A stretch of DNA of 64,000 nt. Origin: Verrucomicrobiota bacterium (GTDB lineage: Bacteria; Verrucomicrobiota; Verrucomicrobiia; Limisphaerales; JADLHS01). Shown here in pieces: positions 22,596 through 26,038 of this stretch. The stretch spans positions 1-64,000 of the forward strand of contig JAKQDQ010000181.1 in assembly GCA_029573725.1 (NCBI GenBank), written 5' to 3'. The stretch's first letter is position 1, and every line of letters starts with the position of its first letter. The position numbers and the translations under genes were made by a program. Under the pieces are notes generated by a model. It was not told the origin of the DNA and searched no databases. It was given only the letters and a program-made list of their open reading frames with translations.

Positions 22596-23885
22596 ATGAT
22601 TGCGCGGACCAAATCTGAAGCCTTGTTCGCCCGGGCACTGGCTTGCCTGCCGGGCGGCGTCAATTCACCCGTGCGCGCTTTTCGCGCGGTTGGCGGCACA
22701 CCCTTCTTCGTGCAGCAAGCCCGGGGTTGTCGCATCACCGACGTGGACGGCAACGAATACCTTGATTACGTCGGCACATGGGGGCCGGCCATTCTCGGGC
22801 ACGCACACCCCAAAATCATCGCGGCGGTAAAGGCCGCCGCCGGGCAAGGCACCAGTTTCGGAATTCCGAACCCTCACGAAGTCCTCATGGCCGAGCGGAT
22901 TACCCGGCTCGTGCCCAGCGTGCAAAAGGTGCGCCTGACCAACTCCGGCACCGAAGCCTGCATGAGCGCCATCCGCCTGGCGCGTGGGTTCACCAAGCGC
23001 GACAAGATCATCAAGTTTGCCGGATGTTACCACGGGCACGCGGATTCGCTCCTGGTTAAAGCCGGCAGTGGCGCCCTCACCTTTGGCCATCCGGACAGTG
23101 CCGGAGTGCCGGCGGATTTTGCCAAACACACCCTCGTGCTGCCCTACAATGAAATCGAACCGCTCCAGGCCGCGTTTGCCGCGCATCCCCGGGACATCGC
23201 GTGCATCATCGTCGAGCCGGTGGCCGGCAACGCGGGCCTGTTCAATCCGAAACCCGGCTGGCTGGAATTTCTCCGGCAGATCACCGCAACGCACGGGGCG
23301 TTGCTCATTTTTGACGAGGTGATGACCGGTTTCCGCCTCGCTCCGGGCGGCGCGCAGGAGCGTTTTGGCATCACACCGGATCTGTCCACCTTCGGCAAAA
23401 TCATCGGCGGCGGTCTGCCGGTCGGAGCACTGGGCGGGCGGGCGGACGTCATGGATCATCTCGCGCCGTTGGGGCCGGTGTACCAGGCCGGCACGCTCAG
23501 CGGCAATCCGTTGGCCATGGTGGCCGGTCTGGCCAACCTGGACGAGCTGGCGGCCGGGGATTATTACGCGCAACTGGAGGCGCGCGGCGCGCAGTTGGAA
23601 GCGGGGTTGCGTGCGGCAGCCGGGTCCGCCCGGGTTGCGGTGACGTTCAACCGCTGCGGTTCAATGTTTTGCTGCTATTTCACCGACCAGCCGGTTTGGA
23701 ATCTGGACGACGCCCTGCGCGCCGACCGCGAGCGGTTCAAAAAGTTCTTCCACGGCATGCTGGCGGCGGGCGTGTATCTGGCCCCTTCACCATTCGAGGC
23801 GGGTTTCATCTCCACCGCCCATGGCGAGGCAGAGGTGGAAATGACCGTCAAAGCCGCCGCTCGAGTGTTGAAGACCCGGGTCTGA
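22596..23885 (+). CDS. hemL: Glutamate-1-semialdehyde 2,1-aminomutase
   Basis: PLP enzyme that makes 5-aminolevulinate in the C5 tetrapyrrole pathway. It has 429 residues, the normal length. The N-terminus [21 protein letters not shown] is diagnostic of GSAM. The PLP-Asp region is [19 protein letters not shown] and the PLP Lys is Lys268 in [19 protein letters not shown]. It appears to be a single-gene unit; no other hem gene is in the window. Confidence 0.97.
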
Positions 23886-23970
23886 TCCGCCGGGACGGGC
23901 GGCTCATGCCGGCGATCGGAAAATCAGCGCTTGACGTCCCCGGCGGGAATCGGTTAAGAGTTACGGCGAA

Positions 23971-24051
23971 ATGAACGGATTGGTTCGACAAGCAGCAGCG
24001 GCGCTCCTCGTAGTCGTAGGTAACGAGGCCGGTGGTTCTTGTCGAAATTGA
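23971..24051 (+). CDS. Branched-chain-rich leader peptide of ilvB
   Basis: A 26-codon ORF begins at ATG 23971 and ends at TGA 24049-24051. It reads MNGLVRQAAAALLVVVGNEA and six more residues. The run of four Ala, two Leu and three Val, followed by GNEA, closely recalls the enterobacterial ilvB leader, whose peptide has a Val run ending in VVGN. A weak AAGAG Shine-Dalgarno-like motif lies 10 nt upstream. It precedes a terminator and the ilvB gene, so its likely job is to let ribosome stalling on Leu and Val codons sense branched-chain aminoacyl-tRNA supply. Confidence 0.82.
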   Translation: MNGLVRQAAAALLVVVGNEAGGSCRN

Positions 24052-24099
24052 AGCAATTTTAACAAGCACCCACGGCCGGGAACGGCTGTGGGTTTTTTT
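24027..24099 (+). promoter_or_regulatory. ilvB transcription attenuator (antiterminator region)
   Basis: Three RNA elements compete here. (1) Bases 24027-24036 (GGCCGGTGGT, inside the leader ORF) can pair with the 5' terminator arm 24068-24077 (ACCCACGGCC) with two mismatches, a candidate antiterminator. (2) A hairpin 24038-24066 pairs CTTGT with ACAAG and AAATTG with CAATTT. (3) The terminator itself follows. A ribosome stalled at the Leu/Val codons (24004-24018) leaves 24027 onward free; one reaching the stop codon covers it and lets the terminator form. The mechanism is inferred from the classical model. Confidence 0.75.
24068..24099 (+). terminator. Attenuator terminator hairpin before ilvB
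   Basis: An 11-bp stem (ACCCACGGCCG 24068-24078; CGGCTGTGGGT 24083-24093, one G-U) is closed by a GGAA loop and followed by a run of T to 24099. It lies 44 nt before the ilvB start, so read-through is needed for expression. Confidence 0.9.
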
Positions 24100-24142
24100 A
24101 TTGCCCGCGGGTCGTCTCCGGCCAGAACCAAGCACAAAACGT

Positions 24143-26038
24143 ATGAGAAAACGCACCGAAAGCACCGAAACGAAAACATCCCGAAGCCGGGCCGCCAAAC
24201 GCGGCAAGGTGGGCAAAGCCATGCTGGGCCGCGACATTTTTGTCGAAGCACTCGAACGCGAGGGCGTGGAGGTCATCTTCGCCTATCCGGGTGGCGCAAG
24301 CATGGAAATCCATCAGTCCCTGACAAAATCCAAAATTCGCACCATTCTGCCCCGCCACGAGCAAGGCGGCTCGTTTGCGGCGGGTGGTTACGCCCGGGCC
24401 ACGGGCAAGGCCGGGGTGTGCATGACCACCAGCGGTCCCGGCGCCACGAACATGGTCACTTCCATCGCCGATGCGTACATGGATTCCGTGCCGCTGATTG
24501 CCATCACCGGTCAGGTGCCGCGCGCCATGATTGGTCGCGGGGCGTTTCAGGAGACTGACATTATCGGCATGACCCTGCCCGTGGTGAAGCAAAGCTATCT
24601 GGTGAAGGACGCGAGCGAAATTCCGTGGATCATCAAGGAGGCGTTTTACCTGGCGCAATCCGGGCGGCCCGGCCCGGTGGTGATTGATGTGCCCAAGGAT
24701 GTGCAACAGATCCGGGTGCAGCCCGTCTGGCCCACGCTGGAGCAGGTCAAGCAGCGGTTGCGCGGCTATCAGCAGCCCCGGTTGAAGGCCGACGACCTGG
24801 CGTTGAACGAGATCATCGGCTTGATCGAGAAGGCGGAACGGCCGGTGTTGTACTGCGGCGGGGGTATTGTCATGGGCAATGCCACGGCGGAGCTGAAAAA
24901 GTTTGCCGAAGCCACCAACATTCCGGTCACCACGACCCTCGGCGGGCTCGGCGGTTTTCCCGAAACGCACCCGCAGTCCCTGCGCTGGCTGGGGATGCAC
25001 GGTTCGGCGGTGGCCAACTGGGCGGTGAGCGGGGAGTTTGAGAAACGGAAATCCTTCAGTGATCCCATGGTGAAGCTGCACGCGGGGGCGGATCTGCTGC
25101 TCGCGTTCGGTGTGCGCTTTGATGATCGCGTGACCGGCAAGGTGGAGGAGTTCTGCAAGACGGGCACGATCGTTCACATCGACATTGACGCCTCCGAAAT
25201 CAACAAGAATTGCAAGGCGCATCTGCCCATCGTGGGCGAGATCAAGGATGCGTTGACGCGACTGAACCGCCTGCTGGCCAGGCGGCCGCTGGCCAGGAAA
25301 TTCACCGCCTGGTGGCAGCAGATTGAGGCCTGGAAGCAGAAGGCGCCGTTCAGCTATGCGGTGACGCCGGAGATCATGAACAGCGAGCACATGCGCCGCC
25401 ATCTCAAAGGCCAGCCGGAGCAGTGCATTCTGCCGGAGATGGTCGTCGAGGAGTTGTACGACCTGACGAAAGGCGATGCCTTCATCACCACGGGCGTCGG
25501 CCAGCACCAGATGTGGGCGGCCCAGTGGTACAAGTACCAACAACCGCGCCGCTACATCAGCAGCCTGGGCCTGGGCTCCATGGGCTTCGGTTATCCGGCG
25601 GCGCTGGGCGTGAAGGCCGCGTTTCCGGACAAGCACGTCATTGACATTGACGGTGATGGTTCCTTCCTGATGAACAACCAGGAGCTGGCCACGGCCAAGG
25701 TGGAAAAACTCGCCGTGAAAGCCATCGTGTTGAACAATCAATACCTCGGCATGGTGATGCAGTGGGAGGACAAGTTTTACGGCGGCAATCGCGGGCACAC
25801 CTATCTCGGCAACCCCGAAGCGCGCGCCGACATTTATCCGGACTACGTGCAGATGTGCGAATCGTTCGGCGTGAAATGCGAGCGCGTGCTCTACAAGAAG
25901 GACTTGCGCGCGGCCCTTCAGCGCATGTTGGACGCCGCTGAACCCTACGTGCTGGATGTCATCGTGCCGCATACCGAGCACGTGCTGCCCTTCATTCCCG
26001 GCGGCAAAACCGTGGCCGACATGATCTGGAAACCTTGA
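24143..26038 (+). CDS. ilvB: Acetolactate synthase large (catalytic) subunit
   Basis: ThDP/FAD enzyme that condenses pyruvate with pyruvate or 2-oxobutyrate in Val/Leu/Ile synthesis. It has 631 residues. The N-terminal ThDP Pyr domain has VIFAYPGGASMEIH with the catalytic Glu in RHEQGGSFAAGGYARATG. The ThDP diphosphate motif is GDGSFLMNNQEL near residue 508. A basic extension of about 25 residues (MRKRTESTETKTSRSRAAKR) precedes the conserved start. Start 24143 lies downstream of the attenuator; the open frame further upstream runs through the leader. No ilvN small subunit or ilvC follows, which is unusual since AHAS normally needs a regulatory subunit. Confidence 0.95.
   Translation: MRKRTESTETKTSRSRAAKRGKVGKAMLGRDIFVEALEREGVEVIFAYPGGASMEIHQSLTKSKIRTILPRHEQGGSFAAGGYARATGKAGVCMTTSGPGATNMVTSIADAYMDSVPLIAITGQVPRAMIGRGAFQETDIIGMTLPVVKQSYLVKDASEIPWIIKEAFYLAQSGRPGPVVIDVPKDVQQIRVQPVWPTLEQVKQRLRGYQQPRLKADDLALNEIIGLIEKAERPVLYCGGGIVMGNATAELKKFAEATNIPVTTTLGGLGGFPETHPQSLRWLGMHGSAVANWAVSGEFEKRKSFSDPMVKLHAGADLLLAFGVRFDDRVTGKVEEFCKTGTIVHIDIDASEINKNCKAHLPIVGEIKDALTRLNRLLARRPLARKFTAWWQQIEAWKQKAPFSYAVTPEIMNSEHMRRHLKGQPEQCILPEMVVEELYDLTKGDAFITTGVGQHQMWAAQWYKYQQPRRYISSLGLGSMGFGYPAALGVKAAFPDKHVIDIDGDGSFLMNNQELATAKVEKLAVKAIVLNNQYLGMVMQWEDKFYGGNRGHTYLGNPEARADIYPDYVQMCESFGVKCERVLYKKDLRAALQRMLDAAEPYVLDVIVPHTEHVLPFIPGGKTVADMIWKP

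Follow-up and report, generated by a model that had tools for sequence, protein, structure and literature searches.

The ilvB gene, whose product catalyses the first step shared by the valine, leucine and isoleucine pathways, lies on the forward strand of the window, i.e., the whole 64,000-nucleotide stretch of Verrucomicrobiota DNA that was analysed here. The product reaches 674.7 bits with NCBIfam model TIGR00118 (cut-off 538.35), which assigns it to the biosynthetic large subunits, and it contains the Pfam TPP_enzyme N, M and C domains. The upstream gene, hemL, is located on the same strand and ends at 23885. The following features were found on the forward strand between hemL and the end of ilvB:

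23931-23960, forward strand: sigma-70-like promoter, with -35 TTGACG at 23931-23936 and -10 TTAAGA/TAAGAG at 23954-23960, assigned from the sequence and the homologous leaders
23971-24051, forward strand: leader open reading frame (ORF) of 26 codons, MNGLVRQAAAALLVVVGNEAGGSCRN, then a stop codon at 24049-24051
23984-23992, forward strand: strand 1 (protector), UUCGACAAG, codons RQ, partner 24038-24046
24004-24018, forward strand: candidate control codons CTC CTC GTA GTC GTA, inside the leader ORF
24027-24046, forward strand: strand 2, with alternative partners, strand 1 (via 24038-24046) or strand 3 (antiterminator)
24062-24078, forward strand: strand 3, ACAAGCACCCACGGCCG, the 3' arm of the antiterminator and the 5' arm of the terminator
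24068-24099, forward strand: intrinsic terminator, an 11-bp GC-rich stem (24068-24078 with 24083-24093), a GGAA loop and seven T at 24093-24099
24143-26038, forward strand: ilvB, acetolactate (acetohydroxyacid) synthase large subunit, 631 aa, ATG at 24143, the putatively regulated gene

The 26-codon ORF, the 11-bp terminator with its T-tract and the antiterminator are all located where the original prediction had placed them; the promoter 5' of the ORF and the helix between strand 1 and strand 2 had been missed by it. The ilvB frame is open back to a GTG at 24032, through the terminator (24032-24142 of the window), and gene callers may for this reason miss the leader or place the start of ilvB too early.

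According to the calculated folds, the leader RNA is structured (z -3.5), and its helices 1:2, 2:3 and 3:4 constitute the complete set of a trp-type attenuator. In the 1:2 segment (23984-24048; MFE -28.1, z -3.8) the protector helix is formed by 23984-23992 and 24038-24046. The antiterminator segment (24026-24079) reaches -25.3 kcal/mol (z -4.7), as low as none of 500 dinucleotide shuffles, and in the computed fold 24027-24031 pairs with 24073-24077, 24034-24036 with 24068-24070 and 24038-24042 with 24062-24066. It was initially thought that an internal hairpin exists next to a separate antiterminator pair; the pairing was recovered, yet the two are not separate, a single antiterminator arm having the hairpin as its inner half and the pair as its outer half. 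Since strand 2 can have only one partner, and strand 3 is limited to either the antiterminator or the terminator, the three states are exclusive. The terminator by itself has an MFE of -22.2 kcal/mol and is the calculated minimum of the full segment 24026-24102 (-31.5 kcal/mol, vs -25.3 kcal/mol for the antiterminator segment), so that antitermination would have to rely on kinetics, as it does in known attenuators.

Of 57 relatives, 55 yielded an ilvB gene. The comparison used 50 upstream regions, of which 49 are readable, the remaining one being cut by a contig end. All 49 of these members of the order Limisphaerales, also known as Pedosphaerales or Verrucomicrobia subdivision 3, carry a terminator and a leader ORF upstream of ilvB, the ORF being judged by eye and a few variants being weak or odd (for example L039, L044 and L045); the comparison of related ilvB upstream regions, proposed at the outset as a check, thereby spoke for the prediction. 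The usual ORF in the order is Val-rich and ends with G(A/S)CRx. A strict automatic test for both ORF and terminator was passed by 42 of the 49, vs 0 of 33 ilvB upstream regions from the class outside the order, where genome G193, with a Val leader before ilvB (L095), is an exception. The covariance model, which was built on 49 sequences (the window's own and 48 others), detects the element with an E-value of 2.7e-21 as the sole strong match in the 4.28-Mb genome. Exact-pattern matches in named genomes number 59 and come almost entirely from Verrucomicrobia subdivision 3, Limisphaerales or Pedosphaera, so the earlier guess of a Verrucomicrobiota genome was right; ilvB is situated downstream in 58 of them, and the contig of the 59th ends first. 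The element is linked to ilvB and not to the gene 5' of it: hemL precedes ilvB in the window only, and at none of 49 further loci.

Several more distant matches were set aside. Phylum-wide matches of the model outside the class (best E 1.1e-4) were regarded as ordinary terminators, and L113, the one that was inspected, lacks a Val-run leader; the weak matches L119, L123 and L124 within the class, which also have no Val-run leader, were treated in the same way. Three matches labelled Omnitrophota, Acidobacteria and Methylacidimicrobium (L130, L132 and L135) do have the ilvB leader, together with an ilvB that is 66-82% identical to that of the window, which suggests misnamed or mis-binned contigs of Verrucomicrobiota metagenome-assembled genomes instead of a wider distribution.

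The alternative helices show covariation. In the 49-sequence alignment, 80.6% of the cells of helix 1:2 are paired, with compensatory changes on both sides in 8 of 9 pairs, and the cells with both-side changes number 37, vs 11.2 in shuffles (score 0.275 vs 0.177); for helix 2:3 the respective values are 74.3% paired cells, both-side changes in 9 of 18 pairs, and 22 such cells vs 9.8, the shuffle controls in both cases overstating significance when sequences are related. Shifting the partners by 1-3 columns cuts pairing to 30-54%. Compensatory stem changes, which the original prediction had named as a check, are thus present in both helices. The terminator helix is nearly invariant, with 98.2% of its cells paired, and the T-tract is present in all sequences. 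RNAalifold, applied to the same alignment, recovered the terminator alone, because the alternative helices share columns; helix support was counted on the named structures in its place. The number of nucleotides that separates strand 1 from strand 2 is divisible by 3 in 50 of 56 homologues.

In 85 of 86 leaders (the 49 aligned and 37 more) a TTGAC -35 element and a TAnnnT-like -10 element precede the start codon. Counted from the first base of the -35, the start codon comes 34-45 nt later in 85 of the 86 and 36-39 nt later in 73, a spread much narrower than the 30-62 nt upstream to which the -35 search was confined. Transcription is expected to start 0-5 nt 5' of the start codon in most leaders, and at about 23966-23968 in the window, where the predicted 5' UTR would measure about 3-5 nt. 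A 5' UTR of that length leaves no room for a Shine-Dalgarno site, and the leader ORF is predicted to be leaderless or nearly so.

Valine accounts for 27.3% of the leader residues, with a mean of 6.7 and never fewer than 4 per peptide; Leu stands at 8% and Ile at 3.3%. Of the leader Val codons, 34.4% are the rare codon GTA, vs 1.6% in ilvB of the same organisms, which corresponds to about 21-fold enrichment, and part of this codon bias could come from RNA folding. Together, the Val content and the GTA enrichment point to charged tRNA-Val as the main signal; the downstream gene, placed above the TIGR00118 cut-off, serves the synthesis of the amino acid that would be sensed.

Every sequence-level feature of a classical leader-peptide attenuator that was looked for was found, and each comparative expectation of the original prediction that could be tested here was borne out. 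The element is therefore very probably a classical (trp-type) ribosome-mediated transcription attenuator that tunes ilvB to charged tRNA-Val, possibly also tRNA-Leu, as judged from sequence comparison. From these observations we infer translation of the leader, ribosome stalling, read-through and which charged tRNA matters most. RNA polymerase would initiate a few nucleotides 5' of the leader ATG, and the ribosome would read the ORF as a leaderless mRNA. With ample charged tRNA-Val the ribosome would reach the stop codon at 24049-24051 and cover strand 2, the terminator (24068-24093) would then form, and transcription would end near 24099. When charged tRNA-Val is scarce, the ribosome would stall at the Leu-Leu-Val-Val-Val run and block the pairing of strand 1; strand 2, left free, would pair with newly made strand 3, so that no terminator would arise and ilvB would be transcribed. 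Finally, if the leader is not translated at all, helix 1:2 would form, making the terminator the default, as in trp. In the ilvB leader of Streptomyces coelicolor, changes of candidate codons were without effect, as a passage in PMC1262725 reports, which indicates that anatomy alone is no proof of the mechanism.

One may ask if the same structures could serve another purpose. That the terminator merely ends hemL transcription, and the ORF arose by chance, would agree with hemL ending at 23885 on the same strand; nonetheless, promoter, leader and terminator stay with ilvB in loci where hemL does not precede it, the promoter is placed between hemL and the terminator, and the frame of the ORF is conserved, hence read-out from hemL is virtually excluded, mainly because of synteny. 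A metabolite- or protein-binding riboswitch (responding e.g., to ppGpp or Val), the expression platform of which happens to hold an ORF, is extremely improbable. It is true that ppGpp riboswitches control ilvB in Firmicutes (PMC10272879) and that the leader RNA is structured, as given above. However, the conservation tracks codons and pairing, with no aptamer-like core conserved beyond the three helices, and no covariance model of a ppGpp riboswitch, T-box or other Rfam cis-regulator matched the leader; in the whole window a single tRNA was the sole gathering match to Rfam, and matches at E up to 10 were otherwise at chance level.

Two further explanations concern the peptide itself. The well-conserved C-terminal GACR could argue for an arrest-peptide switch, in which a ligand would cause the nascent peptide (..GDAVGACRx, conserved) to stall the ribosome. 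Yet GACR is encoded by strand 2, the pairing of which with strands 1 and 3 is required, and in several homologues (L007 and others) the peptide terminates with GAC, the R codon being replaced by a stop while the CTTGTTGA RNA is kept; a bias towards rare Val codons would not be expected either. Because strand 2 explains the ending, which this group of homologues kept as RNA and lost as peptide, an arrest peptide is very unlikely. As to the amino acid sensed, in the run of the window's leader, AAAALLVVV, Ala takes up four codons, Leu two and Val three; the run is thus largely Ala and Leu, and the whole leader has only four Val codons. It was therefore considered that in this genome the attenuator might respond to leucine or alanine more strongly than to valine, which we find unlikely. 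Two of the four Val codons are GTA, a codon which is very rare in the genes of this genome (2 of 176 Val codons in six genes of the window), and across the homologues Val is conserved at the run positions, but Ala and Leu are not. Of the Leu/Val control codons initially proposed, Val is therefore upheld, being conserved and enriched in a rare codon. The Ala run, which the original prediction had called unusual, is peculiar to this genome and absent from the family; alanine sensing was set aside, as it has no comparative support. The preferred reading remains attenuation through charged tRNA-Val.

Elements of the same build were also found at other genes. Upstream of leuA in the same genome (L218:1333-1455, G000:C34) there is a GTG-initiated Leu-rich ORF, VIGMLNLNLLPGALRLNNAAVGF; its TTGACC is spaced as for a leaderless start, its terminator is of the form CCCCACTGCC..., and Leu-rich leaders precede leuA in other members of the order as well (L106-L109, L114), which implies that the leader amino acid follows the pathway. 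Outside the order, a Val-rich short ORF and a CCCAC(G/A)GC-type terminator lie upstream of a gene for a SAM-dependent methyltransferase in 8 of 12 genomes that have the ortholog. Such leaders, with CCCACGGC-type terminators, were noted at L240-L246, L248 and L100, and five other families of the class have them before this gene. The protein matches Pfam Methyltransf_11/25/31 and no NCBIfam model above its cut-off. In G193 its gene lies beside metY and a gene for homoserine O-succinyltransferase; in G125 it lies beside one for homoserine dehydrogenase. We tentatively propose, at somewhat less than even odds, that one leaderless attenuator design operates on ilvB (Val, in Limisphaerales), leuA (Leu) and the methyltransferase gene (Val, in at least five other families). 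If so, valine-tRNA attenuation would govern a gene with no known part in amino-acid synthesis, and a previously undescribed link would exist between valine supply and a methylation step. A terminator-like hairpin also recurs before the gene of a protein of about 125 aa (..RRAANEAVALAWL..) in several members of the order (G000:C178:27896-27987, i.e., L115, and L110, L111, L112 and L117); this protein matches no Pfam or NCBIfam family, and its gene is possibly another attenuated one. At L105 (G172:C19, about 23905-24055), in a further family of the class, an acetolactate-synthase-like gene follows a Val-rich leader of another kind (..MKLTLVVLLVKVVVVVVTSNEFARA), whose terminator is unrelated.

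A Val-rich leader peptide before ilvB is shared with the E. coli ivbL/ilvBN attenuator, in which it is likewise combined with an intrinsic terminator; that system is, however, proteobacterial and the mRNA of its leader has a normal 5' UTR. Attenuation of ilvBN reflects the substrates or products of the enzyme, as worded in the title of Hauser and Hatfield (1984; cited in PMC10272879). The Corynebacterium ilvBNC attenuator (ilvB-II motif; PMC10272879; PMC11857589) also has a leader ORF with branched-chain amino acid (BCAA) codons before ilvB, and its three helices act as terminator, antiterminator and anti-antiterminator, as would those described here. Its translation starts one nucleotide from the 5' end (PMC11857589) and, by the title of Morbach 2000 (cited in PMC10272879), the C. 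glutamicum leader is translated without a ribosome binding site. The differences lie in the phylum, in leaders of 22-31 codons with a Val run here and 15-17 codons there, in ilvB alone vs ilvBNC and in the lack of an Rfam match here. In Mycobacterium tuberculosis ilvB1NC an upstream ORF (uORF) whose LVVI control run contains a GUA codon is coupled to a similar choice between terminator and antiterminator; a short terminated transcript was observed and the mechanism is supported by reporters, though the phylum is again another one and the regulatory codons number four (PMC13236596). Structured leaders with BCAA-rich uORFs before ilvB occur in other lineages too, as the ilvB-OMG and Leptospira ilvB motifs, the latter with at least three consecutive Val codons (PMC10272879). 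The element was not filed as ilvB-II or ilvB-OMG; the comparison with these motifs drew on their published descriptions, and no Rfam family matched.

A survey from 2010 listed such systems as known from Proteobacteria and Actinobacteria only and added Firmicutes (PMC2965389); Leptospira and others followed later (PMC10272879). No description of attenuators or leader peptides in Verrucomicrobia was found in a full-text literature search, most subscription journals being outside its reach. The covariance model is ready for use in annotation, and the order-wide set makes the parts testable, from leaderless initiation and the sensing of rare codons to the deployment of a single design on ilvB, leuA and the methyltransferase gene. 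An order of Verrucomicrobiota would join the lineages in which leader peptides of the classical type attenuate branched-chain amino acid synthesis: the kind is known from ilvB of E. coli and Corynebacterium, while the phylum, the order-wide conservation and the methyltransferase branch appear to be new.
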